A DNA stretch of 64,000 nt, from assembly GCF_000346465.2 (NCBI RefSeq), contig NC_034009.1, forward strand, positions 26,415,643 through 26,479,642. The letters are read 5' to 3'. The position numbers were made by a program, and so were the translations under genes. Below, in pieces: positions 7,215 through 25,795 of the stretch; positions within the stretch are counted from its first letter, which is position 1, and each line of letters opens with the position of its first letter. The notes under the pieces were generated by a model that saw nothing but the letters and a program-made list of their open reading frames with translations, had not been told where the DNA came from and did no database searches. Source of the DNA: Prunus persica. Its lineage: Eukaryota; Streptophyta; Magnoliopsida; Rosales; Rosaceae.

Positions 7215-7223
7215 GCTTTACAA
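7215..7223. repeat. target site duplication of the large MULE, left copy (GCTTTACAA)
   Basis: A perfect 9-bp direct repeat with 24140-24148. Each copy sits exactly 8 bp outside a conserved inverted-repeat core, as expected for a Mutator-type insertion. Confidence 0.85.
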
Positions 7224-7259
7224 CCCTCTGACTATAATGAGTGGAAAGTTATAAGGGGT
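7224..7259 (+). repeat. left terminal inverted repeat of the MULE
   Basis: The 28-bp core 7232-7259 pairs with 24104-24131 with one mismatch. The block AGTTATAAGGGGT is repeated at once (to about 7272) only on this side. The outer 8 bp do not pair with the right end. Confidence 0.8.
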
Positions 7260-7719
7260 AAGTTATAAGGGGTTCACTTTATAGCCATTAGATCAATCCA
7301 AGGGATAGGGAGAATTGAGATAAAGTTTCACAATTGGGTAGTTGAGGAACCCAAACCCGAATTGAATATCCAGCACGTCCAAAAAGAAGAAGAAGAGGGA
7401 AACACGTCCGAAAAAGAAGAAGAAGAGGCAAGTTCGAAGTTTGAACAGAAAGAACTCTTCTCTCTAAAACCCAGAGGTCTGAGATACCCAATGAAGGCAA
7501 CGGCTAACGACAGTTGAAGGCAACGATTCGCCACTCCGTTCTCCAGACCCTGAAAAAGTATTTATTTGGAGTAGAAGGGGCAAAGGTGTGGATTCCAAAT
7601 CAGTGAAGGGGCCAAGCAGTGGAAGGGGAATGAGAGAAGCTGTATTCGTTGGAAGTGGTAGGTTCCATTTGTGGAGCAAAGAAACAGAAAGACCCCACAC
7701 AGACACCTTGCAATAACAA

Positions 7720-8513
7720 GCATTTGGTGAGTAATTTATGGAATTTGAGTTTAGGGTTAGAGTAATGGTTTTCCCCAATTTGTACCATAAATTTTGTTGG
7801 ATTTGGCATCTCTTCGTTGTGCTTCAGTTGCATGTTAATTTTTGCTTAGGTATATGTTAAAAAAAAGAATGAAAATCAAGTCAATAACAAGTGAATAACA
7901 TCTCAATAATGATATGAATAAGATAATGGTGTTGAATTGGAGGAGGCCCTCAAAACCTTCCACATTTGAAGCAGTGCATAGTGCAGATTAAGAAGAGGCG
8001 TTAGAATATATATATATATATATATTATGAAGTAAATATGATTTCCTTTGTTAATAAATTTGCCTGAGAAACATTTGAACAGATAATAATAAACTCATGA
8101 ATAGAACTGCAAAGCATTTGATGAGTAATGTAAGGAATTTGAGTTTAGGGTTAGAGTAATGGTTTTCCCCAATTTGTACCATCAATGTTGTTGGATTTGG
8201 CATCTCTTATTTGTGCTTCAATTGCATGTTAATTGTTGCTTGGGTATATGTTAAAAAACGAATGAAAATAAAGTCAATCACATGTCAATAACATGTCAAT
8301 AACATGTTAGTAATGATATGAATAAGATAATGGTGTTAAATTGGAGGAGGCGCTCAAAACCTTCCACATTTGAAGCAGTGCAGAGTGAAGAGTACCTCTC
8401 TGGCACTAGAATTTATATATTTTGTGAAATAAATATTATTTCATTTGTTACTAAATTTGCCTATGAGAAATGAGAACAGATAATAATAAACTCATGAATA
8501 AAAGTGCAAAGCA
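7720..8513. repeat. tandem duplication in the MULE left arm (two units of about 394 bp)
   Basis: 7720-8113 and 8114-8513 run parallel, for example GGGTTAGAGTAATGGTTTTC at about 7756 and 8150, and CAAAACCTTCCACATTTGAA at about 7951 and 8357. Both units end with CAGATAATAATAAACTCATG, and the start of a third unit is visible. The segment has no convincing reading frame and may be a subterminal or promoter-type repeat for the cargo genes to its right. Confidence 0.8.
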
Positions 8514-8966
8514 TTTGAAATGAAGGTTGATCTATGACGATTGTGGGTGACTGAAGAAAAAGCTAGAAAGAAATAAGGATGTGGCAATTGCTTAGCAAGC
8601 AGATAGCAGAGTACATGCTTTGCTTTGCTTCCTTCCACTATATTTCTTATTTATTTATTTTGGGTTGTGTATGAGATGACAATAATTGTCATGTGTGTGA
8701 AGTGCAGAACTTGCCTACATTGCACTCACACGAGTATGGATCCATAAATAAAACACGTGAAATTGTTTGTAATTCACATAATCATTGCATTAACAGGTAT
8801 TTGCACAAAAATTGTCATATTGCTTTGATGATGTTAAAGCATGTGATCAGTAATCCCTATGCTCATGTACTTTGTAAAAGTTGTAATGTGCCTCGTTGAC
8901 TAGTTGTGATTGTGCAAATACGTGGTAGTATATGTGTTCACGTTATTTCACGTTGTATTTGAGGAA

Positions 8967-11900
8967 ATGGGATCCAACGTGGAGCTGGTATGGCCAGAGG
9001 CAGAGGTATATTCGTCACGGGTGAACAACTGCTCACATGCAAATTCATCTCTAGCTGCAATTCGAGCGAAGTTGAGTGCGGAACAATTAGAACAATTCAA
9101 GACATCATGCTTTGGCCATCTTCTGAATATAGATAAGATTCAGTTTAGCGGGCAGATTGTGCATGGGGTTGTGTTGCGTAGAGTAGCGGGGCAGGGTGTG
9201 AAAGACTTGGATGGACTGAGTTTCTTATTAGGGTGTGACGTTGCTCAGTTCACTCGTCAGGATTTCTGTTTGATCACAGGGCTTCGTTTTGGGGAAGTGC
9301 CTGAAGTTTCCAGTGGAGAGAGTGATGAAATCAGACTTCAGAAAAGATATTTTATAGACGAAGGAATTACATGCAATGCTTTAGAAGAAGCATTTCTGAG
9401 GTGCACAGAGGAAGATGACATCTACAAGCTAGCTCTTGTTTACTTTGCTGAGTTAGTGGTTTTGGGAAGGGACAAACATTTGAACATCAATCTAAATTAC
9501 CTGACCCTTGTAGAGGACTTGGATGCGTTCAACAGGTATCCGTGGGGTTCGGTGTCCTTTGACAAAACCCAAGACAGTCTATTTTCTGCACCAACAAAGT
9601 ATGTGAAAAGCTTGGAAAATGAAGAGGGAAGAGGGAAGGGGAAAAGTAAGGTAACGGGAACAAGCCAGAGAAATGAGAAGGGCAAGAAGGATAAGCATGG
9701 TGAAGCGCAAAGGAGTGGCTGGAGTTTTAAAGGTTTCACGTATGCTTTCCAGGTACATGGTAATAATGTTCATGTCAGTTATGTTTTGTTTTTCTTTAAA
9801 ACATAAATAATGACTTTTGTCCTGTGAATTGTGTAGATTTGGGTATATGAATTAATTTCTAGAATGGCGGACCTGAATTACTGCAAGGTTGTTGATCCGA
9901 CCGTTGTCCCGCGTATTTTGCGATGGAGAACTACTACGTCTGTTCCAGAGATGAGAAAGTTGAACAATTATTTTTTCCAGAGCAAAGAGGTTTGGTTTGC
10001 AGCCCTTGGAACTATTGATAAGATTGAATGAAATTATGAAGTAGAATGATTTAATATGACTCTTGTCTGTATTCTGAAACAGTCAGTTCAGTTGCGGGCG
10101 CTATGTCCGAGTGAAGAGGAAATGAGACAGCCATATTGGAGTTGGCCACAGGATCGCCCTGCTGTTGTCTCGACAGAGTCAATTCCTTCTTCATGTGGTG
10201 ATCTTGATGAGTTGAACAAGGTGGTAAGCTTGTTGAGGTCCGAGTTGTTTCAAGTAAAGCGGGAAAAAGACGTCCTTCACTTAAAGGTCATACGGATGGA
10301 AAAACTGTTGGACCAATGTTTAGGTCCTCAGTTTGAGCAGGAAGTAAGGAGGGACCTAGCTTTACTGAAACAGAGGACGAATCGTTGTGTCGTCTCACAT
10401 CTATTTAAGGGATATGGGGAAATGGATGACATTCAATGGGATGAAGGGCCAAGTAACAGAAATGAGGGAGAGGAAAAGGAAGAGGAGGGGATTGAAGGGG
10501 GTGAAGGGCCAAGTAATAGAAATGAGGGAGAGGAAAAGGAAGAGGAGGGGATTGAAGGGGGTGAAGTGCAAGGAAAACCAAGTGAGGTAGACGAAGGGCA
10601 AAGGAAAAGAAGTGAAGGAGAGCAAGTGCAAGTAAAAAGTAGCAAAGGAGAGGAAGCCCAAAGACAGAGCAGTGAGGGAGAGGAAGTGAAAAGAAAAAGC
10701 AGTAAGGGAGAGAAACTACAAAGGAAAAAAAGAGAGGGCAAGGAAGTTATGTTGCTTGGGGGTGACATTGGCGAGAGCACGGAGGGGACACTGCTTGAGT
10801 TTACTGTCGGGGACATTGATTTGGATGAACCTACAGCTGTGCTATCTCAGTTGAACGTGTGGTTGAATGATAAGGGTAAAGCTGGGGCACAAGGGGTCCA
10901 ATTACGGAAAAGGAAGAGGATCATTCCTATGTGGAAGATCATTGAAGGCAGTGAATTGGTTCCAAAAATTGGGGCACAGACAACTGGACTGAAGATGTTA
11001 GACCTAATGAAGGCGATTCCGCATGATGATCTGGTAAATTTGCTGAAACTTTGTTGGGAATGGCGCCAGGACCCAAAGTAAGTCCCTTGCAATTATAAGA
11101 TACCTGCATGACTGTATATAATTTTTTATATACAGTGTTCTGAAACTGTTTTATATTCATAGTTTGGTGATGCAATTTGGCAACGTGGAAGCTGAGATTG
11201 AATTCTTCGCTTCCCTCGTGAAAGCTGATGGTTGGCTGAAAGGAGATGTAAGTGTAATTGATTATGCATTTGTTTTAATGTACATAGATTATGAGATTGA
11301 CAAGAAAAATATGTTGCAGCACATTAATTTGGGGTTGTATCTCATCCGGAAGCGACAACAACAGTTGGAGACAGATTCGGTAGAAATAGCGGACTGGACA
11401 ACGACCGATGTTTTTTTTATGGTATGTCATCGGCCTTGACCAAGTGCCGTTAATAATTACACATTTTCCATACACACACTAGTGGAGGTGTTTAACCATT
11501 TATTGTTTTGTATTTCACAGAATCACATTCGTACTTGCTTTGACGATAATAAAAGAAAAAAACAGCAGCTTGGGTGGAAAATCAGAAAAAGTTTACTAAA
11601 CGTTGTAAATGGGAAGGTTCCTCCGTGTGGGTTGGATTGGCAGAACGTCTATAAGGTGTATACCCCATTTATGTTGACGAAGTACAAGCATTGGGTGGCT
11701 GTAATGATTGATCTGGTATTGTGTGAAAGACAAGTGTACGATTCAAAGGTTTCACTAATTCCAGATGACATCGTAAAGGAAGAACTCGCCCCGCTATCAA
11801 TTACGCTTCCAAATCTTCTCAACACCATCGACTTTTATGAAGAAGGTGTTTATGCAAACAATTGCAGCCGAGATTGGTAGTGTCCGTGGCCAATAGAGCG

Positions 11901-12167
11901 TGTGGATGTTCCACAACAATCTAATGAGTAAGCACAACTTGCAATTTAATTTTATTACTTTCAATTGTCAATTACGTTACAATGTCATTAGTTGAATTGA
12001 TCGAGTTCTTGTTTTGCTTCAGAGGCGATTGTGGCATGTTTGTGTTAAAGTACATTGAGCTTTTCAGCGCTGAGCTTCCGTTAGCTACTTGCACCTCGCA
12101 GAACATGCCTTTTTTTCGGTTGAAATTGGCTGCGGAGATAACAAGGGGAGATGCTTACTTTCCATGA
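8967..12167 (+). pseudogene. MULE-borne DUF1985 / Ulp1-like cysteine protease gene, one in-frame stop
   Basis: Six exons can be read: 8967-9752, 9837-9989, 10083-11077, 11163-11421, 11521-11927 and 12023-12167, about 914 codons. Exon 1 carries a DUF1985-type domain (NIDKIQFSGQIVHGVVLRRV, then FTRQDFCLITGLRFGE). Exon 3 has a leucine-rich coiled coil (LNKVVSLLRSELFQVK) and a Glu/Lys-rich tract with a 20-residue tandem repeat. Exons 5-6 are a C48 protease: His in KHWVAVMIDL, Asp in RQVYDSK, oxyanion Gln in PQQSNE and Cys in GDCGMFVLKYIEL. Such proteins resemble SUMO proteases and are known passengers of plant MULEs. A TAG at 11878-11880 sits between the Asp and Cys parts, so the catalytic Cys is lost unless the stop is read through or spliced out. 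ATG 8967 was chosen because the frame upstream of it looks non-coding. Confidence 0.8.
10443..10562 (+). repeat. 60-bp in-frame tandem duplication in the Ulp1-like gene
   Basis: Two near-identical 60-bp units encode EGPSNRNEGEEKEEEGIEGG twice. They belong to a longer acidic/basic low-complexity tract (10441-10740) with looser EG-Q-K-S-EGE repeats. Since 60 is divisible by three, the frame is kept. Confidence 0.9.
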
Positions 12168-12574
12168 TATTGGTTGAAGATGACAAATGGTACATGAGAA
12201 GGTTTTGGGAATGTCCATTCTCAAACTAATGTAAATACACAATAGAGACGTACGGGTCCTTATCGAATTCTACCGCTAACTCCTTCATGACATTTACATG
12301 TTTGATAACCAAACTGCATTGAATTGGAATTTTAAGACTGCATATGTGAATTGGGATTTGAAGATGGCTTTTTAAGTGTATTACATCATTGCGCTGCAAT
12401 ATGTCATTGTTGATGCAAGCCACCATTAATCGCAATGTGTTGCATCATAATAGGTGTCTAAACATGCGAAAGGTTTTCCGCAGCTCGGTAGCATACAAGT
12501 AGAAACAAAGACAATATACACAAAATGAACAACAATTCACAAACGCACCGACAAGCAATACACACACAACAGAC

Positions 12575-12710
12575 AAACAATATACACACAATTGGCCTGC
12601 CATATACAGAGAATAGACATGCAATATACACACAGTAGACATGCAATATACACACAATAGACATGCAATATACACACAATACTCCCTTAACACACACAAT
12701 AGACATGCCC
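12575..12710. repeat. minisatellite, about 22-bp unit (AGACATGCAATATACACACA)
   Basis: The unit AGACATGCAATATACACACA plus two bases recurs about five times with small changes, within a CA-rich stretch (12500-12720) downstream of the Ulp1-like gene. Long minus-strand frames here are repeat-driven (LCVYCMSTVCI-type) and are not genes. Confidence 0.8.
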
Positions 12711-13089
12711 TTGCCCACAATAATGATGCAATATACTTCAGTCCCCAAGTACACCAACCATAGGGAAGTCGTATTCAATAGGATATTAAACTTAACAGTT
12801 GTTCTTCCTACTAAAAGAAAGAATAAGGTCCGTTTCCCCCCTTCATTCTTACTTGAGTGATACTTGTGGCCCCAATAAACATCCAATTTTGGAGCAATGA
12901 TATTCCATATACATGCAGCAAACTATCAATAAACCTTTAATAAACCTTCAATACACATTCATTATCGTTTCTATAACATGCGAAATACATGCAGTTACAA
13001 AATATTACAAAATGGGTTTAGGGTCTCATTGGTGGTGCCTGCAACATGTCTTGTGCGGGAGAACTTTCACAATCTTTTAAACCGTGCAG

Positions 13090-13486
13090 TTAAATGATCA
13101 TTATAAGAACAAATAAAATGACAATTGATAGAACTAATAAAACTAATACCAAGTCCTTAATGGACTTCAGCATGTTCAGCACTCTAGCATCATACGTGTC
13201 ATCTTGATGTTCTGCTTCAGCGGAGGTTACATCAACCCATTCGAATCCATTGCAACTGGTGGCTCCCTAATTGCAGGCATCATATATGGAATATAATTCT
13301 GTCAGAGTTAGACATAGGTTTTTTTTCACCCACATACATAGTCTTTAAATTAAAACTTACATAGGAGGTTAGACACTTCCAGAATGGCTTCCCTCGATTT
13401 TTTTCAGATTTTGAAACCCGAAGCACCATTGTAGCTCCACAATACTGACACCTCTTTGTTTGAGCGGGAGATGAAGACGAAGACAT
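13090..13486 (-). CDS. GRF-type zinc-finger microprotein with C-terminal membrane helix (2 exons, 100 aa)
   Basis: Exon 1 (13361-13486) encodes MSSSSSPAQTKRCQYCGATM and then a basic segment ending NRGKPFWKC. Exon 2 (13090-13266) begins GATSCNGFEWVDV and ends with about 20 hydrophobic residues (LVLVLLVLSIVILFVLIMII) before the stop. The spacing C-x2-C, NxGKPFWKC, C-x2-FEW is the GRF zinc finger, a nucleic-acid-binding motif. Splice sites are TAT|GTAAG and CAATTAG|GG. Small GRF-finger proteins with a coiled coil or membrane tail are common in plant genomes, often in transposon context. Here it sits inside the MULE, on the opposite strand to the Ulp1-like gene. Its role is unknown; tethering a nucleic acid or the transposition complex to a membrane is speculation. 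Confidence 0.72.
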
Positions 13487-14151
13487 GTTGAATCTTCTCA
13501 GTTGTACCTCTTCTCACTCAGATCTTCTCACTGAAACCTCTTCGGACCCATACCTTCTCACTCATAGTTGTCATTCATACCCCTTCACTCATAACCTTAA
13601 ACTTGTCACTCAGCTCTCTCTCATCTCTACCCAAATGGAGTTATATTTCTTTTTTTGGGATCATTTGGTGGGTTGGTCACGATGTCGACACCTGTACCGT
13701 CAGCATTGTGACATCTTTTAGCCCGAAAAGCAATATAAACTACTTCACTACCAAATATATTTTCTGAATAATGACGGGACACTGCTTCAATTTTATGAAT
13801 TTATTTATATTTCATTAAGGCAACTAGTTGGATAAGAATCCGTCATTATTGGTTCCATTTTAATAACATTACTAGGGGTAGTTGGGTGTGGGAAAATGAA
13901 AAAGTATATGATGGGACCTTCTGTCACTAGTCAGTAATTCATCACATTTGTATCAATGAATTTGATAGTGGGATAAACCGAAAAATGGCTATGCAAATAG
14001 CCATTTAATTAACTTTTTGACTGTCTGACTCTGTATGCACCGTTATGACGTTTTCCCTTCTTTTGTCTTAAGTTTTAATTCACTTGGGTTCAGTTTCTTT
14101 CAAAATGGTCAACTTGGAAAAACCCCAACTGGAAACACCTTTTCAAAACAC

Positions 14152-14158
14152 TATAAAC
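14152..14158 (+). promoter_or_regulatory. TATA-like box of the MULE F-box-like gene
   Basis: CTATAAAC lies about 90 bp before the ATG at 14245, after an otherwise non-coding stretch. It supports 14245 as the start rather than the longer open frame from 14035. Confidence 0.45.
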
Positions 14159-14244
14159 AGAGGCTAAAACAAAACGTGTACCCCAAATATTATCATTTAT
14201 CCCCTCTGCCACTCATCAAATCGTTCCATTCCAAAAACTTTTCA

Positions 14245-14994
14245 ATGAATTCGAAACACTTCACTACCGTCGGAGGAAAGAGAAGGAAGCATCTCCATTT
14301 CGATATGCCCGAAGCCTTCATCCCGGAGTCCGCTTGGTTTCAAGTGATGTTATACGTGGCAACCGAATCATCGGAAGATCTCTTCCGTATGGCATCTGTG
14401 TGCTGATTGTTCCAAACTTTGGCAAACAGTCCACAAGTGTGGAACACCATTTCAATGGCAAAGTACCCAGACCATCCTATCTGGTACCGTGCCAGACCCG
14501 CGGTCCAGCATTTCTTGCAACAATGCAGGGCTTGCGATAACCCTGAGTCCATATTTAGAGAAGCATTCGAAGGTTTTTTCACGGACGGTAAGGTGGAAGC
14601 GTTGTATGGGATGCGCATTGCAGCCACGGCAGGCCATATGGAAGCGGCATATGTAGTTGGACTACTTGGTATGTCCGGAATTGGTCAGTCAAAAGAGGAT
14701 GCATTACAATTCTTGTGTTCTTTGAATCAACGTAACAACATTGATATGAAAGGAACCAGGGATGCTTTGACAGGAAGAATTCGCCGAGCATTTGTTGCAA
14801 GACATATCGTAGATATGTTTGACTACGGGAAGATTAAGTTCAATCGGTGCAGCGCTTGTAACAACAATGAATGGTATTTTGTTATTCCAGGCTGGCCTAG
14901 TGAAGACAAGATCAATCCTGCGTTGTGGACTTGTTGCAATCGATGCAAATGGCACCGTGAGTGTATTTTTTGGTGCAAACTGATGCGTGAGTAA
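14245..14994 (+). pseudogene. F-box-like gene (At2g35280/At1g67623 type) inside the MULE, one in-frame TGA
   Basis: From ATG 14245 one frame runs to 14994, interrupted only by TGA at 14404-14406. Before it an F-box-like segment reads IPESAWFQVMLYVATESSED followed by LFRMASVC; after it LFQTLANSPQVWNTISMAKY continues the same fold. Next come Sel1/TPR-like helices (DGKVEALYGMRIAATAGHME, AAYVVGLLGMSG) and a Cys-rich tail (CSACNN, TCCNRCKWHRECIFWC). This order matches the plant family annotated as F-box protein At1g67623/At2g35280-like, substrate adaptors of SCF ubiquitin ligases. The stop replaces the residue after VC in the F-box; a single change from CGA or AGA would suffice. Without it the protein would have 249 residues. 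It may be captured host sequence or a resident MULE gene. Confidence 0.72.
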
Positions 14995-15725
14995 GTTGTG
15001 CGAGGGAATCACGTATTTTTGCATTAGTTTTAGTACGAATTTACGGTGTTGATGCATTGTGGACTTGCTTCTCTTCACTTCTAGGTTGGCTGGCTACGTA
15101 ATACAAATGTTTTGTTTAAATGTTGTTCAAATGTTGGTATTTTGTCATAAACCGTTTTATATATAAATGTATAATATTTATTATATAGCGGAATTATTAC
15201 TTACATCATAGACGGCTAGGAATGACATTTTACTGACACAGATATTTTGCTCACCGACCCCAATCTTCATATTTGGTAAACGAAAAGTCATGCATGGAGT
15301 AAATAGGTGTCTTTTCACCAGTGCTTGGGAATGACATTTTCCCACTTAGCATATCCGAAAGGATTTGGTTCCACGTTTCTTAACCTAGGGGGTTGACCAG
15401 TGAATGACGTAGACTATTTTTTTTGTGTGGAAGGAGTACAATGGATGACTTGTATATTTCCATATTATGTTTCAAAACATCCCTTGAACCTAAAAAATAT
15501 AAAAATGAAAAAATTGAAGAACAGAGAAACCGATGACCACTACAAATGGCCTATTCGCATGGAAAATAAAATTGTTTTCAACAAGTTGGACTAAATATAA
15601 TTAACAAATGGACAGCCTAAAAAGTAATATCATAATAATTATAATAATTGTGGATAAATAATAATAAAATACTAATGTAGCATAACCATTAAACAGGGAA
15701 TGCAGTAAGAAGATGAAATCGCAAT

Positions 15726-17045
15726 AAGTTCGTAGAAATTTTCGGATCGTTTTTCTAATTTTTGTGTATTTAGTTATGAATTTTCAAAGAAAAAAGGTAA
15801 TAAAATAATAATTTAGGGTAAAATGGGAGGATGTGGCCATGTTCGGTAACGTACACTTGTGCAAGTAGTCAAAAGTGATGGGCTGAGATCGCGCCAGGTG
15901 TCATATTCTTGTTAATTTTGGATTCTTTTGTTAAAAAATGTTTGAAACTAGGTAATAAATAGTAGGAAAATCATAAAAATGGCCCAAAAATTACTCCGGC
16001 CTCGTTTTGAGGTCCTAAAACTAGGAGAACCTATAAATCATTCGTCTCGCAATGAAATAATCCAAATTTTTTTACATAACTCACTTTCCTCTTAACCCTA
16101 AGTATTGATGTTTGTTAACTTCAAGTTGAATAACCTACTTCAACAAGCATCTCCCGTTAATGTTGGGAATTAATTTTACAAATGCGTAACAATGAATCGG
16201 AGATTTCAGCAACGGAGATGGAGTGTCAATGAGTTCGTAGCAATTTTCGGAAATAATTTTGAATTTTTCTGTATTTAGTTATGAATTTTCCAAGAAAAAA
16301 GGTAATAAAATAATCATTTAGGGTCAAATGGGAGGATGTGGCCATGTTGACTGACGTACACTTGTGCAAGTAGTGAAAAGTGACGGGCTGAGATCGCGCC
16401 AGGTGTCATCTTCTTTTAAATTTTTGATTCTTTTGTTAAAAATTCTTTGAAACAAGGTAAAAAATAGTAGGAAAATCCTAAAAATGCCCCCAAAATTACT
16501 CCGGCCTACTTGTGACGTCATAAAACTAGGAGAACCTATAAATCATTTGTCTCGCAATGAAATAATCTAAATTGCAAATACATAACTCACTTTCCTCTTA
16601 ACCCTAAGTATTGATGTTTGTTAACTTCAAGTTGAATAACCTACTTCAACAAGCATCTCCCGTTAATGTTGGGAATTAATTTTACAAATGCGTAACAATG
16701 AATCGGATAATTCAGCAACGGAGATGGAGTGTCAATGAGTTCGTAGCAATTTTCGGATAATTTTTTTATTTTGTGTGTAATTAGTTCTGATTTTTGTAAG
16801 GAAAAGTAATAAAATAATAATTTAGGGTAAAATGGGAGGGTGTGGCCATGTTGACTGACGTACACTTGTGCAAGTAGTCATCAGTGACGGGCTCAGATCG
16901 CGCCAGGTGTCCTCTTGCTATTATTTTGGCTTTTTTAGTGCAACAATCTGTGGACATAGGTAATAAATTCTACGAAAATCCAAAACATGCCCGGAAAATG
17001 AGAAAATGAAAATTATTTGTACATAACTCAGTTTCCTCTTAACCC
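15726..17045. repeat. tandem array with a 505-506 bp unit, about 2.6 copies, inside the MULE
   Basis: Units start at 15726, 16231 and 16737 (AGTTCGTAG then CAATTTTCGG). Each has GATCGCGCCAGGTGTC and GGGAGGATGTGGCCATGTT; the first two also share AACCTACTTCAACAAGCATC. The third is shorter and more diverged. No frame is conserved. The size suggests a satellite-like or regulatory repeat private to the element. Confidence 0.85.
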
Positions 17046-17190
17046 AAATTCACGTTAACACGTATATTTCGGATAATATTCGAAATCTAATTTCTAATAA
17101 TACAAAATTTAGTTTCACTATATACAATAATATGTTTTGTTATAATAATGTACATAAATAATAATTGCACATGCTTTGAAGCCATCATTG

Positions 17191-17355
17191 CAACTACGCC
17201 TAGAGCTTTCAAGACGTCAGTTCGTATTCAATAAGTTGTCCACATGCAACTGCACCTAGAGTTTTCAACACGTCAGAGGTATTCAATAAGTTGTCCACAT
17301 GCAACTGCACCTAGAGTTATTAACACGTCACAGGTATTCAATAAGTTGTCCATAT
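17191..17355. repeat. tandem array with a 55-bp unit, three copies
   Basis: CAACTGCACCTAGAG, ACACGTCA and ATTCAATAAGTTGTCCACAT recur at 17191, 17247 and 17302, spaced 55-56 bp. Non-coding. Confidence 0.85.
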
Positions 17356-17955
17356 GACGCCGCATTGGGAATCAGTAATATATTTTCAATCATGTCCAAT
17401 CACATAAATAATGCCCTACTTTTTCTCAATAACCTCACACAAGTGAAGCAATTTTAAAACCCTTAGTGAATATTTGTCCTAGTCTATATGAGTGATTATA
17501 TAATCAGTTGCATAATATTTTTTTCACAGTATATGTTAACTTTGAGAGGGATTCCACAAACATAAAATATAAAGAAAGCAAGAAATAGTAGGAAATGAAC
17601 CAGTACAAAAAAACAATATATAAAGTGTACATAATAATTCCATAACCTTGTCACAAACGCACTCACAAAAGCTTTTCCATAAATCTTGTCCTAACATATA
17701 ATAAATAAAGGCAACATTGCATATGATGCAACCATGTCCAAATCTGATACGTGATCAAAAACAAATGGACATGGCAGCAACATATGACTGAAGTAGATGG
17801 GCTCTTTGCATCTTCTGTTTTCGTAATTAAAGACATCAAAATATTAAGGTTTAAATCTTCCATAGTAGTTAGCATCAAAATAGCTTTGAAGCAGAGTGTA
17901 ACGAAAATTCCAATTCCACTTAGTTGCCTCTGCTCAAACACGAGAACCAAAATGG

Positions 17956-18441
17956 TTACTTCCCTTGCTGAGTATATTTGGTGACGTCGGAAACGGTAAT
18001 AGATGACCAATCAAACCCGGGTACGACGAGTTTTGCATAGGATCGGAAGTAGTCGAATCCAGCTTGCATCACACGCTTCTTTGACTCCACTGCATTAGAT
18101 GAGTTCTTGTATTTTTGAACAGCTACACTCCGAAGTCGTTTGTGTCTACGCTTCATGCGTTGCAACTTCGCCCTATCCAGATTGGCCTGCCTTTTGTCAT
18201 CTTCAATTTGGCCTTCCACAAATTCCAAACGTGCCCTTGCCCTTTGGATTTCATCACCAAGTTGAAGATGCCTCTCCTTCCAAAAAGCAACAACTCTTTC
18301 AGACTCAAAACTTCCAACAAAATGGTCATTCTGTCTAGGAATGTGACATTGCTTGTCTGGTGACTCACTTGCGTGTCGAAGGCGGTCTTTGTTTGGAGGG
18401 GTGTTTATTATGCTCACATCAAACTTGGTTAGTAAATCCAT
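17956..18441 (-). CDS. MULE-borne coiled-coil protein, left member of a divergent pair (161 aa)
   Basis: I do not recognise a named family. The frame is open from 18597, but a TATA-like TATAAAA (18531-18537, minus strand) and an E2F-type site lie inside the first 50 codons, so I place the start at MDLLTKFDVSIINTPP (18441). The protein has a polar N-terminus, a long basic coiled coil (FWKERHLQLGDEIQRARARL, KLQRMKRRHKRLRS) and a C-terminal motif GFDYFRSYAKLVVPGFDW. The plus-strand neighbour ends with a related motif (GFDKFRAFAATTHTSYDW), so the two are paralogues fired outward from one intergenic region. The coiled coil plus GF...F...DW tail loosely resembles Gag-like proteins of plant retroelements. 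A structural or DNA-bridging role is only a guess. Confidence 0.65.
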   Translation of the reverse strand: MDLLTKFDVSIINTPPNKDRLRHASESPDKQCHIPRQNDHFVGSFESERVVAFWKERHLQLGDEIQRARARLEFVEGQIEDDKRQANLDRAKLQRMKRRHKRLRSVAVQKYKNSSNAVESKKRVMQAGFDYFRSYAKLVVPGFDWSSITVSDVTKYTQQGK

Positions 18442-18530
18442 TCTTTGGGGGGAATGAGTTTGTTTGCTTGAGAGAGTATCGGTAGATGGAGACAGATTCG
18501 GTGGAGGAGTGAGTTTTGTGTGGAAGGAGA

Positions 18531-18537
18531 TTTTATA
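18531..18537 (-). promoter_or_regulatory. TATA-like box for the minus-strand coiled-coil gene
   Basis: TATAAAA on the minus strand, about 90 bp upstream of ATG 18441 and about 33 bp downstream of the E2F-type site, in the order expected for a core promoter. Confidence 0.5.
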
Positions 18538-18569
18538 TGAAAGGGGTGATAGTAATACCAAGAAAAGGG

Positions 18570-18580
18570 TTCCCGCCAAA
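18570..18580 (-). promoter_or_regulatory. E2F-type site (TTTGGCGGGAA) upstream of the minus-strand coiled-coil gene
   Basis: Minus-strand TTTGGCGGGAA matches the plant E2F consensus (TTTSGCGSGAA type) that drives S-phase genes. The same 11-mer sits in the facing promoter at 18772-18782. Binding is inferred. Confidence 0.55.
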
Positions 18581-18771
18581 AAATATTTGGTTGACAAAGT
18601 AGAAATTATTTGTTGGTCTGATACAATCTAAGTTTAATCCTAACTAGTTTGGTTTAGTTAACTAAGTACATGTCACTTCCATTGACTTTCTTTCAACCAC
18701 TATCAGTGGTGTAAGGAGAGTGTGAGGTTGACATGCTTGAAAAGCAAAAGCTGACACCTATTTTTAAAAAA

Positions 18772-18782
18772 TTCCCGCCAAA
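18772..18782 (-). promoter_or_regulatory. E2F-type site (TTTGGCGGGAA) upstream of the plus-strand coiled-coil gene
   Basis: Identical 11-mer to 18570-18580, about 45 bp before TATAAA at 18825-18830. Both sites are followed on the plus strand by an AT stretch and TTGAC. I noticed no other copies in the MULE. Confidence 0.55.
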
Positions 18783-18824
18783 AAGTACATATGTTGACTA
18801 CACACAAGCTTTGGTATGTTGGTC

Positions 18825-18830
18825 TATAAA
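18825..18830 (+). promoter_or_regulatory. TATA-like box for the plus-strand coiled-coil gene
   Basis: TATAAA lies 32 bp before ATG 18862 and 74 bp before ATG 18904. With a start site about 30 bp downstream, ATG 18904 may be the true start. Confidence 0.5.
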
Positions 18831-18861
18831 CCTATGTTCCCTTTCTCAAACGAAATTGCAT

Positions 18862-19510
18862 ATGCAATCCTCATCCTCCCAAAACAAAGAGGATTATTCA
18901 AGCATGTCAACCTCTTCAGGCGCCAACAACACAATCGAAGATGACAAATTGGAGTCGCAGGTTCAATTTCCACATTGTACTCGCCGACCCCTTCGTTTTT
19001 CAACATCATTTGGGAGTGAGGGGGACTCTGATGATCCATTAGAGGCAATACATGCAGTCAGTGGCAAGCTGGATTATAATTCCAGACTGATCAATTCATG
19101 GCACGAGAAATGTGTTGAAGACGAGGCAATTTTGGCTGATCTTAACATTAGAGTGAACAAAGCGTTCTCCCAAAAGAACAAGTACTTGAAGCTGAGTCAT
19201 AAAAGGAAGCTGAAAGCTGAGTCATAAAAGGAAGCTGAAAGCTGAGGAGTTGGATACAGTAATGAATGATGAAATGAAAGGTTGTTTGATGAACCATATG
19301 CGATGCGAAGAGCACCATAGTGAACTGGAGTTGGCATTCAACGAAGGATTCGACAAATTCCGAGCATTTGCGGCAACTACTCATACAAGTTATGATTGGA
19401 ACTATGTGTCCCCTGATGCTGTGAGAGAGATACTAGACGATGGGGGTGACATGAATGAGCATAAGCACGTCAAAGCTGTTCGGAAGAAGCCGACCGATAC
19501 GACTAAGTGA
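18862..19510 (+). pseudogene. MULE-borne coiled-coil gene, right member of the divergent pair, broken by a 25-bp duplication
   Basis: The frame from ATG 18862 (MQSSSSQNKEDYSS) stops at 19227 inside the second copy of a 25-bp tandem duplication (19191-19240). Reading resumes in another frame from about 19241 to a stop at 19508-19510. Removing one 25-bp unit joins the two parts into about 207 codons, so this is one gene with a recent lesion. It has an acidic Ser-rich N-terminus, a central helical part (DEAILADLNIRVNKAFSQKN) and the C-terminal motif EGFDKFRAFAATTHTSYDW shared with its minus-strand paralogue. The tail (MNEHKHVKAVRKKPTDTTK) recurs in a decayed copy at 19935-20042. Function unknown. 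Confidence 0.68.
19191..19240 (+). repeat. 25-bp tandem duplication causing a frameshift
   Basis: Two perfect copies of GCTGAGTCATAAAAGGAAGC plus TGAAA, followed by GCTGAGGAG. Since 25 is not divisible by three, it shifts the frame and exposes the TAA at 19225. Confidence 0.95.
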
Positions 19511-19934
19511 TTGCGGCTACCGCTGTTCAGTTGGTTGAGGGTGACCGTGGTATTGCACATATACTCCCTTAATGTCATTATCTAATTTAAAATAACACAA
19601 ATATCAGTTTCATTTGCTTCATATATAATTATTGGGACTATGTATTGCAAGTCATCATGTGTTATAATGTCTAACATTATATTTTGCAAATATGGAAATA
19701 TTATTCAATAAAAAGTCAATATCACAGCAATGCGGGAATCAGTAAATACTCCTTATCATGTCCATTTACATTAAAGAGCTGGCGTACTAATGTGTTAAAA
19801 AAAAAACTGACACGTGAGTCAAAAGTAACATAACATGTGCTATACATTGTTTAGTGAATGGTTTTTGGTTTATTTATATATAATAAAATTTCAAATATTG
19901 CTGAAGATTTATTTCGTCTATATTACTAGGGATA

Positions 19935-20042
19935 TGAGTGGCCATAAGCATGTGACACCTGCTAAGAAGAAGCTGACCAGTACGACCGAGTGATTGTGGC
20001 TACCGTTGTTCAGTTGGTTGGGGAGATCGTGGTATTGCTAAG
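19935..20042 (+). pseudogene. decayed duplicate of the 3' end of the coiled-coil gene
   Basis: GGCCATAAGCATGTGACACC, then AAGAAGAAGCTGACCAGTACGAC and GTTCAGTTGGTTGGGGA, parallels 19455-19555 (coding tail, TGA and 3' flank) with many substitutions. Only the last 25 or so codons and the flank survive. Confidence 0.75.
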
Positions 20043-20889
20043 AGGGAGCACATAATATGTTTTGCAATCAAATGTTCTTTTGTGTGTGGAATTATGAGTA
20101 TTTATGTAAGTTAGTGTACCCTTTAATATTTTTCACCTAAGTATCGAAATGCAGTTTTTGAATGTTATGTTTTTTTTTTAGCTGCAATGTTATTTTTCTT
20201 TTTTACACGCTGCTTTCTATTTGCTCTTTTCCAACCAAGTGCTTCAAGTATCCTTCAGTTACAAAAGTGTACAAAATCGTGCCCCTAATAACCATTCGGA
20301 AAAAGTGGCTACTGCTGGAAATGATTACTGGTAATGGAAACAACAGCTGGCTGCTGGAAATGCTGCATTAGCCTGAGGATTTCAAAAATGAATCTCTGTT
20401 AAAACATAATTCACCCTAAACTGCCCATTTTACAGGGTAAAAGTCATTGCTTCTTCACATAACTACAAATTTCATACTTGATCAACTTCGCCCTATGAAA
20501 ATTTATAAATAGGGAGAAGACGTAAAAGTAACATGTCTCCAAATTTCATGGAAGAATAAAAGCAAGCAAATTTTCATTTCAATTACCAGTGGACATAGTA
20601 AGAGCTCATCGGTGGACATGAACAAAAACACAATAATATTCAAAAACTGAATCTATAAAACTTCACCTGATCATTAATCTTCATAACAACCACATTTCGT
20701 CTAATACAAATATAAATCATTCAATTGGTCCGTGCATCCTATCAAAATCGTCGAATAATGGGTCACTACGATGTATTGGAGTTGATTCGTCATTGTTCGA
20801 CGGTGATGTCCTGCATAAACATCAAACACAAGCACATAAAAATTTTACCTATTCAAATTTTAGATTTTATTACAAATAGTGTTAGCATC
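20043..20889. other. non-coding part of the MULE between cargo and transposase
   Basis: No plausible frame, repeat or RNA gene seen. It includes the 3' flank of the transposase gene. Confidence 0.5.
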
Positions 20890-23037
20890 TTACGGTGTGT
20901 TCAAGGCTGGGCATTGTCTTCTATCATGACCAATGCGTCCACACTCCCGACAGTGTCTAATCCCTCGCTTCATTGCCTTTTCCTTTGCTCCCGTTACTCC
21001 TTTCGACCTTCCTTTGCACCTCACTCTCTTAGGGTCTTTCATATATTGTGTTTGAGAGCTGGACCCTCCAACTTCGTTATTACTTGGTCCATCCTTCAGC
21101 AACTTCAACTTCACCTGCAAACTTTTTAGAGTCTCTGACAGTAGCTCACATCCTTCTTCACTCATTAATGCATCCTCAACCACATCTGAAGCAAGTCGAG
21201 ACATTGTACACCGCTTTATTAGAAGGCCAGGATCTGCACAGTCTTTAATTTCGTTGCCATTTGCCTCTGACACCAATCCAGATTTCGCAGTTTTCTTCCA
21301 CCTCTTCAAAATATATTTATCGGGCATATATTCAATCTGGTCCCTTCTGAACAATGCTAGGATGTGCTTGCAAATAATTCCAACAAATTCAAATCTTTTG
21401 CAGCTACACGATGCGTGGTCAGAATCTTTGACATATACGACTTCTGCCACTCTTGTTTCCCAATTTTTCCTTTCGCTCACGTTAAAGACAACTTTAGAAG
21501 CATCCTCTGTTTTGAACTCTAGGAAACATGCTGTACTTTGTATTAGTTCTTGCTCAAACTTTTGAAACATTGTCCTTGTGTACAAGGTAGCCATTTGTTT
21601 GTTCATTGACATCGGTAGAAGACATTGAACCACTTCAAATGCATCTACGTGATCAGCAACTAACTCTTTTTCACGTTGATGAGAAAGTGCCCTCTCAAAT
21701 CGTATTATGAAATCCATCAACGAATTTCTCCTTGATATGTATTGCTTGAAAAAACCATGAGAACCTTCCGCTCTTTGGCTGCTTGACATTCCAGCGGCAA
21801 AAAATTGTCGTGCGTAGGCTGGAACCCAAGATTCCCTTAAATCAAATATTGAACTTAGCCATGGATGGTCAGTCAAACTAGCCTTTGTAACCACAATATT
21901 CCATTTTGCATCAAACTCATCCTTATTGTCAGTATCCCATATGGCTTTCTGAAATTCACGCCAATACTCCTTATAAGCGTCACGTGGTAACTTAACAGAG
22001 AACTTTGATGTGATGTGCCATATGCAAAGTCGATGAAATGTAGTCGGGAAGGCTATTGAAATCGCTATGGCCATTGCCGCATCTTGATCTGTAATGATCG
22101 TTTTAGGTTCCCCACCTGGCATGGCTTTCTTAAACTCCTCAAACATCCAAACAAACGACTCAGTCGTTTCCTTGCTCAAAAATGCGCATGCTAAGACAAT
22201 TGTCTGACCATGGTTATTAACTCCCAACATTGGTGCAAATGTCAAGTCGTATCGATTCGTGTTGAATGTGGTATCGAATACAACAACATCTCCATAAAAC
22301 CCATATGCCCGTCTAGAAGTTGCATCTGCCCAAAAACATCGACTAAACCTGTCATGCCCATCTCCCTCAATCTTGAAATAAAAAGCCTCATTTTTTTTCT
22401 GTTCAGCCATAAAATACTCGGTCACTAGTTCAACATCGTGGTTCCTCAGCGTCTCATTCACACTACATTCAAGATTGTAGATATCTTTTTTGATAAAACC
22501 GATTTTATCCATTCCTCCGGATTGCACCTCGAAAATACTTACCTTCTGATGAATGGAAATATTAACTGAACCCAACTGTTTTGTGAGTACTTTTGTAGAA
22601 TCTGAAATATGACGGTGTGATCTCAATAAATGCATTCTTTCTGAGGGTGTCATCTTATGATTGTGTCCCTCTGCAAAAAGAGATATGGTATACTTCTTGC
22701 TCCCATTTGTCTTCACAACCACAATCTTAGCTTTGCAATTGCATCTACTTATTCCTCGTTGTCTTTTTCTCTCCCGAGTTTCATCCTTCCTGTATGCACC
22801 TTGTTTGCAACATACAAATTCTTTCCTCAAAATCTCTTTCTTATTTTTCCCCCAAAAGCTAGAATGAAGTTGAATACCAAAGCCAGCAAAGAATGCATAT
22901 CTATTATAGAAATTGTAAACGAGGTCAAGCGAGTCAAACTTCATCCCAACTGCTGGTGTTTCCTCATTTCTTACTTCAGGAATATAAACCCTCTCATTAT
23001 CCCCCGTGCATTCATCACTCTCTGAGCCCCCAGACAT
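20890..23037 (-). CDS. FAR1-type Mutator-like transposase, intact single exon (715 aa)
   Basis: Encodes the DDE transposase expected to move this element. Domains in order: FAR1-type DNA-binding domain at about residues 33-127 (FDSLDLVYNFYNRYAFFAGF, RCNCKAKIVV, GHNH); MULE catalytic domain at about 245-430 with D255 in VVFDTTFNTN, D317 in IITDQDAAM, the C/H pair in HRLCIWH and E424 in SSSQRAEGSHGFF; SWIM zinc finger C544-x-C546-x9-C556-x-H558 (CSCKRFEFVGIICKH); and a C-terminal CCHC knuckle (CRECGRIGHDRRQC). All key residues are present and the frame has no lesion, so the element could be or recently was autonomous. It lies 1.1 kb from the right terminus and is transcribed inward. Domesticated relatives are FHY3/FAR1 and FRS, but position inside intact termini favours a true transposase. 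Confidence 0.93.
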   Translation of the reverse strand: MSGGSESDECTGDNERVYIPEVRNEETPAVGMKFDSLDLVYNFYNRYAFFAGFGIQLHSSFWGKNKKEILRKEFVCCKQGAYRKDETRERKRQRGISRCNCKAKIVVVKTNGSKKYTISLFAEGHNHKMTPSERMHLLRSHRHISDSTKVLTKQLGSVNISIHQKVSIFEVQSGGMDKIGFIKKDIYNLECSVNETLRNHDVELVTEYFMAEQKKNEAFYFKIEGDGHDRFSRCFWADATSRRAYGFYGDVVVFDTTFNTNRYDLTFAPMLGVNNHGQTIVLACAFLSKETTESFVWMFEEFKKAMPGGEPKTIITDQDAAMAIAISIAFPTTFHRLCIWHITSKFSVKLPRDAYKEYWREFQKAIWDTDNKDEFDAKWNIVVTKASLTDHPWLSSIFDLRESWVPAYARQFFAAGMSSSQRAEGSHGFFKQYISRRNSLMDFIIRFERALSHQREKELVADHVDAFEVVQCLLPMSMNKQMATLYTRTMFQKFEQELIQSTACFLEFKTEDASKVVFNVSERKNWETRVAEVVYVKDSDHASCSCKRFEFVGIICKHILALFRRDQIEYMPDKYILKRWKKTAKSGLVSEANGNEIKDCADPGLLIKRCTMSRLASDVVEDALMSEEGCELLSETLKSLQVKLKLLKDGPSNNEVGGSSSQTQYMKDPKRVRCKGRSKGVTGAKEKAMKRGIRHCRECGRIGHDRRQCPALNTP

Positions 23038-24103
23038 TTGATCTACGTATATTATTGATCCACTTCTATATTACTGCATAGCAATTATTCATTCATTAAT
23101 CAGTCATTACTGCATCACAACATATCAATGCATTCCACTTACACAAAACATTGCCCAAATTGACACAAAATACGCATAGCCTAACTTCCGATTACACAAA
23201 ACGCAAGCAAAATTTCATAAAAGTTACGTCATCTCTTGTGAAATAATCTGGTAAAAATAACATTAGAACCAACATGTTCAACTAAGAACACAAATGCAAT
23301 TCAAACCACCAATTACAGAACTTCACCCAATATCCTCTCCAACTGCTTACTCCTAATGTCATTAAGCCTAAGTTTAGGTTATTTTACCTACATTTTATAA
23401 TTTTCCACCCCGACCAACAACAATGAACTAAGTATATTGAATATTCATAAGGAAATGACACATTATTGATTCCAAAAATGAGGCATTATTGATGCCACAA
23501 ATGACGAATTTCCCACCCTCACAAAAAATAAACCTAACCCAATAAAATCATTCCAGCAAGTGAACTTACCTCTCAAAATCAATCGGGAGCTCTGCAGTCA
23601 GTCAGCTTGAAAGAATGTGGTGGACATTAGAGAAGACTCTTTGGTATTTGAGACTCCATATCTACCAAAATCGGGGAACAACTGCTGCTGCGGCTTCTAG
23701 CTACAAAAAGAGATATGCTACTTTGCTTTCATCTGGAATCTTGTCAGCTGAATGAAAAAGAGAAGGGGTTTTCACTTGAGCCATAGAATCAAAACAGGGC
23801 AACAGCTAGGTAAGAGCCATTCTTCGTAATACCCAGGATACCATAGATCGCAGGCCTCCCAACGAGCTAATGACAATCGAGTGACTATAAGGTTCGGGAC
23901 ATTTGGATCCTTCTAATTGTGGGTTTGCTTTACATTCAAAAAGAGAGGATTGTGTTCTTCAGTTTTTCACAGAGAGGGAAAGAGGGGAACAACTGAAGTT
24001 GGGTTTCTAACGGGTTAGATTTCAACCCGATTCTACATGCACCCTCTTTTAAAAAAGTCACCGTTGGATGAAATCCAACGGCTCTTACATACCCCTCAAA
24101 AAC
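23038..24103. other. MULE right arm: probable transposase promoter and subterminal region
   Basis: AT-rich, with no coding frame. It contains short direct repeats (for example GACACATTATTGAT and GAGGCATTATTGAT near 23457-23493). Position suggests the transposase promoter; I see no decisive TATA box. Confidence 0.4.
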
Positions 24104-24139
24104 ACCCCTTATAACTTTCCACTCACTATAGAAGCTCTC
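24104..24139 (-). repeat. right terminal inverted repeat of the MULE
   Basis: Mirror of the left terminus, ending 8 bp beyond the conserved core. Just inside it, 24061-24084 holds a small palindrome (CCGTTGGAT...ATCCAACGG); a related sequence (CCATTAGATCAATCCAAGG) lies just inside the left end at 7286. Confidence 0.8.
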
Positions 24140-24148
24140 GCTTTACAA
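24140..24148. repeat. target site duplication of the large MULE, right copy (GCTTTACAA)
   Basis: Identical to 7215-7223. The symmetric distance of both copies to the inverted-repeat core makes chance identity very unlikely. Confidence 0.85.
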
Positions 24149-24718: not shown

Positions 24719-25795
24719 TTAACTCAACTCAAAATTTTGGTACAAAAGTTCAAGAGGGTGCCCTTGTAGAAATTCCAACATGCCCCAGCTAATCAAATTA
24801 TGACCATCAGAATAAGAAAGCGACTCTGCGCAATGCTCGGTCATCCATTGTATTTCTTCATTTGAATTTGAATCCTCAGCTGCAACAATATCATCCAACA
24901 ATGGGTTTTGGTCATTTTGCAGAGCTTCCATGTCTTTGACAGTGCTGCCGGTGCCGCAGCTGCAAGACTGCTTAGTATTTGAGTCCGGGGCTTTTGGAGT
25001 TTCAGAGGAGGAGGAAGCAAGAGGTTTTGGAGTTTGCTTTTTGAAGCCAAGCTTCTTGCACAAACGAGTGTTCCAGTAGTTCTTGACTTGGTTGTCAGTT
25101 CTTCCTGGTACACGCCCCGCAATCAGAGACCACCTGTACATGTTCATACAAAGTTAATTAAGCTTTGATCAGTGATTAATAATCCGATTTAATTATCAGC
25201 AGCATCCATATACATTAACAAACACGTTGATTATTTTTATATACATAAATATAATGTGATTCCATTTCCAAGTACCAATAGAAATAGCGAGACATGGGGA
25301 TCAAAGTCACCCTGCACACATTACTATCACGGATCTACCCAATTTTTTAAATCAAGTCTTAATTAACAACACTCCAAAACATCCAAATGAGCATCTCAAA
25401 GAAATTAATCCTCCCCCCACAAGAAAAAATATATGAAAAGTGAAAGGTGGAGATAAATTTCAGAAAACCTGTTGCCAAGGAGATTATGAAGTCTGATGAT
25501 GAGGTCCTCTTCTTCCTCAGAAAAATCTCCGCGTTTCACATTTGGGCTCAGATAGTTGAGCCACCTCAATCTGCAGCTCTTTCCATTCCTCTTTAAACCT
25601 ACATATATATATATATATATATCATATAATGAAGATGAAACGAATCAGACAAGTGCATACTGTAGATAAGGTCTTACCGGTGAGCTTAGGAATGCGATTC
25701 CAGCGGCCACTTCCATGTACGGTTACGTAGTCTAGCAGAACCCTATCCTCCTCCTTTGTCCACAGCCCTTTCTTGTACTCATTTTCTGCTTCCAT
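24719..25795 (-). CDS. R2R3-MYB transcription factor, WEREWOLF/GL1-like (3 exons, 220 aa)
   Basis: Exons 25678-25795, 25469-25598 and 24719-25133 (minus strand), with introns at the two classic R2R3-MYB positions. R2: [20 protein letters not shown] ending [22 protein letters not shown]3: [20 protein letters not shown] ending [20 protein letters not shown]. The stretch [20 protein letters not shown] fits the bHLH-interaction signature [DE]Lx2[RK]x3Lx6Lx3R, so it probably works with R/B-like bHLH and WD40 partners in epidermal cell fate or pigment control. NEYKKGLWT and SPNVKRG are typical of the WER/GL1/MYB23 clade (subgroup 15). The start is ATG 25795; the preceding in-frame codons lack an ATG. 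Intron 1 and the promoter hold TA microsatellites (25601-25620, 25866-25886). The gene is intact; the MULE ends 580 bp beyond its stop. Confidence 0.93.

Follow-up and report, generated by a model that had tools for sequence, protein, structure and literature searches.

Do the genes that lie between two Mutator-type ends at a peach locus form one mobile element, and do those beyond the transposase belong to its family or were they captured at this place? The locus lies in a 64,000-nucleotide stretch of the Prunus persica genome (NC_034009.1, positions 26,415,643–26,479,642), hereafter the window, whose numbering is used unless another contig or locus is named. The original prediction had placed here, at 7224–24139, a single Mutator element with an intact FAR1-type transposase and five further genes. 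Our analysis agrees: this segment of 16,916 bp is one complete Mutator-like element (MULE) with six genes, a FAR1-type transposase and five more, namely a gene joining DUF1985 and Ulp1 protease domains, a small GRF zinc-ribbon gene, an F-box-like/TPR_27 gene, and two coiled-coil genes (CCm and CCp). The evidence comes from the sequence itself, from the ends and from ten colinear copies.

One element and its family

The boundaries proved exact. Two terminal inverted repeats (TIRs) of 28 nt, at 7232–7259 (plus strand) and 24104–24131 (minus strand), are 96% complementary, with one mismatch over 28 nt, and begin eight bases inside the element; the outermost 8 bases at either end do not match each other. 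Immediately outside, a perfect 9-bp target-site duplication, GCTTTACAA, occupies 7215–7223 on the left and 24140–24148 on the right. Within the 64-kb window, the terminal core has two full matches, and allowing up to three mismatches gave three matches versus 0.02 expected from shuffles. The MULE transposase domain was detected in the element by Pfam (PF10551, E = 2.3e-29).

Across the peach genome searched (227.5 Mb, 192 contigs), the terminal core occurs at 193 places with at most three mismatches. Among the matches listed, 119 distinct places yield at least 46 neighbouring plus/minus TIR pairs, of which 42 span 15–21 kb, two about 11 kb and two 28–29 kb. DUF1985, GRF, F-box and CCm sequences are all present in at least 34 of the 42 pairs of 15–21 kb, a lower bound given that low-identity and fragmentary matches were left out of the gene match lists; in the remaining eight, one or two of the four genes had no listed match. 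Ten further copies, hand-chosen among TIR pairs of about 16.8–18.3 kb (the two ~11-kb pairs being left out), were compared end to end with the window element. All ten are colinear with it, with insertions and deletions in the repeats, and they fall into two subfamilies, three copies being ~97% identical to the window element and seven 91–94%. None of these ten has ends that enclose the transposase only.

Because all ten copies are colinear and at least 34 of 42 TIR pairs hold the four cargo genes checked, we conclude that the cargo belongs to the family and was not captured at the window locus. The search with termini and cargo genes that the original prediction had proposed thus came out in favour of a family-borne gene set. 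The standard form of the family is about 17 kb long and carries all six genes. The great length and mixed gene origins had at first suggested a local composite, in which unrelated insertions or captures were nested between two MULE ends at this locus only. Nothing was found in its favour, and the colinear copies and the cargo-bearing TIR pairs refute a composite or nested origin, to which we now assign practically no chance.

A comparison of ends in 21 copies found the 9-bp duplication perfect and in exact register in 15. Among the first 11, seven are perfect over at least 9 bp in exact register, one of them being an AT repeat; two others have a duplication one or two bases out of register, and none is perfect in the remaining two. 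The ten additional end pairs gave 9/9 matches in exact register in eight cases and 8/9 in two. As a control, 90 mismatched end pairings reached at most 6/9 in exact register, and up to 8/9 if both sides were allowed to slide. At C8:6291831–6292145, a pair of element termini faces outwards, about 300 bp apart.

The six genes and their state

The transposase gene (20717–23037, minus strand) has exons 20894–23037 and 20717–20810, the second being inferred. Pfam places FAR1, MULE and SWIM domains in one minus-strand frame, 20890–23070, and by these domains the protein is of the FAR1/Jittery type. In Jittery/FAR1-type MULEs, a single transposase combines FAR1 DNA-binding, MULE and SWIM domains. The peach transposase has the same domains, and its element differs in being about 17 kb long with five extra genes.

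The DUF1985–Ulp1 gene (8967–12167, plus strand) was modelled with seven inferred exons (8967–9752, 9837–9989, 10083–11077, 11163–11247, 11320–11421, 11521–11927 and 12023–12167) separated by GT–AG introns. Pfam detects DUF1985 (PF09331, E = 1.1e-16) in the window frame 8910–9806 and Peptidase_C48 in the frame 11440–11880. The spliced gene of the single open copy encodes 942 amino acids with both domains, and database proteins from Prunus likewise have DUF1985 and Ulp1 domains on the same protein. The alignment between the protease part of the open copy and human SENP2 (E = 9.8e-8) spans the Gln-containing PQQ and the Cys-containing DCG stretches. The HW and DS stretches, containing His and Asp, align with SENP2 too, an agreement that is not significant alone. 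In chain 5aek, Ser stands at the position aligned with the Cys of the peach protein. We take the His, Asp, Gln and Cys of the alignment to be the catalytic residues; by alignment, then, the Ulp1 active-site set is kept in the family. The window copy has one premature stop at codon 827 (11878–11880), upstream of the exon with the catalytic Cys, and otherwise keeps its frame to the end; its predicted product is truncated ahead of the Cys.

The small protein encoded at 13090–13486 (minus strand; exons 13361–13486 and 13090–13266; 100 amino acids) has a GRF zinc ribbon, revealed by scanning its version in the majority sequence of a subfamily. Its C-terminal hydrophobic stretch, judged by eye, is a putative transmembrane segment. 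The F-box-like/TPR_27 gene (14245–15027, plus strand) encodes 260 amino acids in open copies and has stops at codons 54 and 250 in the window. TPR_27 was found by Pfam in the window frame 14407–14994; one open copy passes the Pfam cut-off for the F-box-like domain and another falls below it.

The two coiled-coil genes are divergent, with CCm at 17956–18441 (minus strand, 161 amino acids) and CCp at 18862–19510 (plus strand, 207 amino acids in open copies), where a 25-bp duplication shifts the frame in the window. AlphaFold2 predicts one long helix in each protein, of 96 and 107 residues, respectively, with predicted local distance difference test scores mostly above 85 in the helices; the alignments behind the models are shallow (7 and 13 sequences), and the predicted template modelling score is 0.36 for each. 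A fold search was omitted, as a single long helix would match anything. Comparison of the two profiles gave a probability of 97.7 (E = 2e-12, 111 columns), and since the profiles match each other, CCm and CCp appear to be paralogues. The divergent coiled-coil pair recognized at the outset is borne out by structure prediction and profile comparison. Among database matches, 15 of 17 for CCm and 60 of 69 for a four-family CCp profile were named, all of them from Prunus, and by these named matches the pair appears to be Prunus-specific. A second copy (80%) of the CCp 3' end lies about 480 bp downstream, at 19931–20023, likely a partial duplication.

All five cargo genes named in the original prediction are present, and the transposase is intact, as claimed; the part that did not hold concerns the integrity of the cargo, three of the five genes (DUF1985–Ulp1, F-box and CCp) being broken in the window copy, with transposase, GRF and CCm open. 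Counted over the 11 copies, window included, reading frames are open in two for the transposase, the second being in one other copy, in one for DUF1985–Ulp1, in ten for GRF, in four for the F-box gene (a fifth copy lacks the usual stop), in seven for CCm and in five for CCp. All six are open together in one of the 11. The majority sequences of both subfamilies keep the frames of all genes open. The window copy would rely on other copies for products beyond transposase, GRF and CCm. The genome holds dozens of copies of the family, most of those compared being damaged.

Coiled-coil genes beside DUF1985 in other families

Relatives of the cargo genes at 23–45% identity persist in other families. 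Distant CCm matches number 69 in the genome (about 22–32% identity), and a CCp-like partner lies within 5 kb in divergent orientation for at least 47 of them and in tandem for at least five. Among 67 distant DUF1985 matches, mostly at 37–45% identity, 48 are accompanied by a coiled-coil gene at no more than 15 kb, and 38 by both coiled-coil genes; with random placement the mean was 0.42 and the maximum 3 (200 trials).

Four loci with these genes (L053–L056) were examined, their element ends not being delimited. L053 combines the coiled-coil pair with an 830-aa transposase, containing a MuDR-type DNA-binding domain along with MULE and SWIM domains, and with an intronless RAD51-family gene; a DUF1985 match lies about 6 kb beyond the CCp gene. 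L054 and L055 each have the coiled-coil pair, and each is adjoined by a relative (52–53%) of the L053 transposase with one internal stop. An Ulp1 domain is also present at L055; the presence of this domain beside distant DUF1985 is drawn from the one locus where that part was examined. L056 has a tandem coiled-coil pair, an F-box-like/TPR_27 gene and a piece of a MULE transposase. This piece and the window transposase both match ZSWIM1-3_RNaseH-like; the L053 transposase does not. Since DUF1985 and the coiled-coil pair adjoin each other in families with other transposases, we conclude that DUF1985 genes and the pair form a module accompanying two kinds of transposase in peach MULEs.

The RAD51-family gene of L053 (5852–6736 of that locus; C1:4372351–4373232) has XRCC3 as its best structure match, over residues 13–292 of 294. 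The genome holds 31 matches that cover at least 288 of the 294 residues at 94–100% identity, 23 of them without an internal stop. In 27 of the 31, the opposite strand carries a MuDR-type transposase at a distance of up to 5 kb; in 29 a CCm-like match lies within 3 kb, and in 25 both are present. We read the XRCC3-like gene as a gene of the L053-type MuDR MULE family.

Constraint, repeats and candidate functions

What might the cargo do? The nearest described system is that of the Arabidopsis VANDAL elements, with genes VANA, VANB and VANC. VANC proteins contain DUF1985, bind short motifs in noncoding tandem repeats of their own elements and bring about loss of methylation (PMC5735166, PMC10398659), and KIU forms add an Ulp1 domain (PMC13317346). 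As far as the consulted portions of these papers describe them, VANDAL elements share with the peach element a transposase accompanied by a DUF1985 gene, noncoding tandem repeats and a large multi-gene structure, and KIU forms share the Ulp1 domain, in peach fused to DUF1985 in one gene. The same portions point to differences: the peach element has 28-bp TIRs (96%) where those of VANDAL are absent or degenerate, a FAR1-type transposase and six genes instead of three, and its coiled-coil pair, GRF and F-box genes find no mention there for VANDAL. The absence of TIRs is not strict, as some related elements have them according to the part of PMC6446971 consulted.

With a probability of roughly 0.6, we favour the reading that the family is an autonomous MULE lineage carrying a VANC-like anti-silencing gene and a Prunus-specific pair of accessory proteins, the functions being suggested by sequence comparison. 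Under this reading, the transposase would cut at the 28-bp ends and thereby produce the 9-bp duplications. The DUF1985 protein, by analogy with Arabidopsis VANC, would bind repeats in the noncoding DNA of the element and lift silencing. A VANC-like role is the leading inference because the peach element has a DUF1985 gene together with several noncoding tandem repeats.

Selection was assessed between the majority sequences of the two subfamilies. CCp and CCm differ at 5/624 (0.8%) and 5/486 (1.0%) positions, which places the pair among the most conserved cargo of the family by sequence divergence; DUF1985 exon 1 (9/786) and transposase exon 1 (24/2144) differ by 1.1% each. The GRF exons are 2.4–2.8% diverged, the Ulp1 exons 3.2–6.8%. 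Intergenic divergence, 4.0% on the left and 5.5–5.8% around the coiled-coil genes, reaches 11.3% after Ulp1, and introns range from 3.6% to 22.6%. The exons of CCm, CCp, DUF1985 and GRF are thus about 2–7 times less diverged than adjoining noncoding blocks and introns. Amino-acid changes were compared with a neutral simulation in eight gene parts, with a transition weight of 2 or 4 and P values left uncorrected. Three parts came out with too few such changes: at weights 2 and 4, respectively, P was 0.001 and 0.008 for the transposase, 0.009 and 0.03 for the Ulp1 exons, and 0.04 and 0.06 for the DUF1985 exons. We read the transposase and DUF1985 as kept by selection, and the coiled-coil genes likewise from their low divergence; the GRF gene is probably kept by selection too, the Ulp1 part is weakly indicated to be, and for the F-box gene selection between subfamilies is not shown.

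Several observations weigh against the favoured reading. With five changes apiece, the coiled-coil genes show no shortage of amino-acid changes (P = 0.34 and 0.73), nor does the F-box gene (0.89), and the tests for GRF (0.12) and for exon 3, the DUF1985–Ulp1 linker (0.13), are not significant. Divergence is also low in noncoding DNA at the right end (1.8%) and in the transposase intron (3.6%), so that the contrast seen for the transposase may be partly due to regional exchange between subfamilies. Damage is widespread, especially in the transposase and DUF1985–Ulp1 genes. In other families, 17 of the 69 distant CCm genes are without a partner among the matches listed, and the kinship of the peach gene with VANC is drawn from the common DUF1985 domain.

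Some of the same facts would fit neutral hitch-hiking, in which a founder captured the cargo once and the genes were copied along without being of use to the element. Most copies are broken, the few changes in the coiled-coil genes show no amino-acid deficit, and the F-box gene, itself without such a deficit, diverges nearly like noncoding DNA (42/783, 5.4%, versus 6.5–8.0% in its flanks). Such passive copying is, however, hard to square with the low divergence of the CCm, CCp, DUF1985 and GRF exons, with frames that are open in both majority sequences, and with relatives that survive at low identity in other families; we regard it as unlikely.

Control of host protein modification, suggested in the original prediction, fared unevenly. 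It would take the form of Ulp1 and F-box proteins having SUMO or ubiquitin conjugates of the host as direct targets, for instance by de-SUMOylating silencing factors, with DUF1985 just targeting the protease. The kept catalytic positions and the SENP2 alignment of the open copy at Gln and Cys lend themselves to this proposal, as does the F-box-like domain above the cut-off in one open copy. Against it, the subfamilies differ more in the Ulp1 exons (41/806) than in the DUF1985 exons (11/939), the F-box gene appears unconstrained, and both genes are broken in the window copy, the protease ahead of its Cys exon. We consider this alternative improbable.

Within the favoured reading of an autonomous, VANC-like lineage, the coiled-coil proteins may form a dimer or heterodimer that assists transposition or anti-silencing as an accessory factor. 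TnpA of En/Spm is a coiled-coil accessory protein that binds subterminal repeats. The likeness is one of analogy only: in each case a transposase would be accompanied by a small protein that associates with itself, with short repeats as potential sites. En/Spm belongs to another superfamily, the peach arrays are internal, and binding in peach is putative.

The pair could be expressed in S phase if the TCCCGCC motifs between its genes, which we take to be E2F-like, are real E2F sites. Two lie between the divergent genes (18571–18779, plus strand), at 18571 and 18773, and are the only ones in the window element (2 versus 0.45 expected). At least one site is kept there in 9 of 11 copies. At L053, L054 and L055 (6, 3 and 3 sites; positions 4592–4679 at L053 and 4957–5009 at L055), every site lies upstream of the CCm homologue; none occurs at L056.

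Noncoding repeats of the element comprise an array of CAATA motifs at 11/22-bp spacing (12528–12703, plus strand), three copies of a ~505-bp tandem repeat (15711–16999) and three 55-bp tandem repeats, the third weakly similar (17224–17388, plus strand). Three phased CAATA motifs occur at 2571 places genome-wide versus 36 for the reversed pattern, an excess of about 70-fold. Arrays with a motif every 11 bp were found in the window family and at L053 (1843–2023 and 9514–9606), L054, L055, L057 and L058, and seven of nine clusters lie in or near matches of these MULE genes, judged by eye among the first 100 places listed, all at the start of C1. L057 and L058 each have a single open reading frame of at least 120 aa, by eye unlike the MULE cargo genes, and at L056 the pair genes are present with no CAATA array in the 10 kb examined. 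Because arrays thus occur at L057 and L058 without such genes, and the genes at L056 without arrays, a link between the arrays and binding by the coiled-coil pair is unproven. Neither TCCCGCC sites nor CAATA arrays prove a function. L057 (C1:219500–225500) has long inverted repeats with arms of several hundred bp, the longest at 95%, and no recognizable cargo gene.

Each 55-bp repeat contains AGTTGTCC, the VANC6 motif published in PMC5735166, which occurs three times in the window element where 0.57 occurrences would be expected (P about 0.02, a post hoc value left uncorrected). The three copies amount to one tandem repeat, the remaining 47 kb of the window has two, and the other ten copies have one to three. 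This coincidence is weak and may serve as a lead only. None of the 11 copies contains the VANC21 motif.

Taken furthest, these observations would suggest that Prunus MULEs share an exchangeable accessory module, DUF1985–Ulp1 with an E2F-driven coiled-coil heterodimer, that serves FAR1- and MuDR-type transposases alike. By binding the 11-bp CAATA arrays, the heterodimer would organize the element or relieve its silencing during S phase, and the XRCC3 of one branch would steer repair of the excision gap. We hold this full scheme to be speculative and, as a whole, rather unlikely. If the module reading is true, plant MULEs would be modular multi-gene elements and not a transposase with passengers. 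A single odd locus becomes a repeated natural experiment, with dozens of six-gene copies and related families that keep some of the genes. Together they make it possible to ask whether conserved accessory systems that help to escape silencing or to complete transposition are part of plant DNA transposons; the lineage-specific protein pair and the transposon-borne XRCC3 are concrete, testable parts of it.

Parts of the picture are already in print, namely ULP1 in MULEs, DUF1985/VANC and KIU. The consulted part of PMC2528002 describes Ulp1-like sequence in MuDR-like and Jittery-like MULEs of grapevine as transduplicated and cites ULP1-bearing MULEs of melon. Compared with the grapevine elements as described there, the peach element has a spliced DUF1985–Ulp1 gene travelling with a conserved coiled-coil pair. 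The element is no Pack-MULE, having its own transposase, open in the window copy. No description of the six-gene set, of the coiled-coil pair or of an XRCC3 gene borne by a MULE was seen among the titles and abstract openings listed for open-licence papers, in searches that used neither coiled-coil nor GRF as a term and did not extend to Repbase. We consider as new the coiled-coil pair recurring beside DUF1985 across MULE families, one of which has a MuDR-type transposase and an intronless XRCC3 gene.

FaSt, a non-autonomous Mutator miniature inverted-repeat transposable element of Prunus, creates 9-bp duplications and has no genes, according to the consulted parts of PMC12071656 and PMC13359793. 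It shares with the peach element, on that description, the host genus, the Mutator type and the duplication length, and differs from it in lacking genes. A role of the peach element as its autonomous partner was rejected: no strong end match was found at three peach loci located with the published primer (one mismatch each), the best local score being 28/120 over 60-base ends, with no control and with FaSt ends that were not delimited. The published primer has 295 genome sites at up to two mismatches, and a primer-site variant with three mismatches in the window, at 61206–61227 (minus strand), may mark a diverged FaSt remnant.

The last exon of a MYB gene lies at 24719–25153 (minus strand), with its stop codon about 570 bp past the right duplication, which places the element on the 3' side of this gene.

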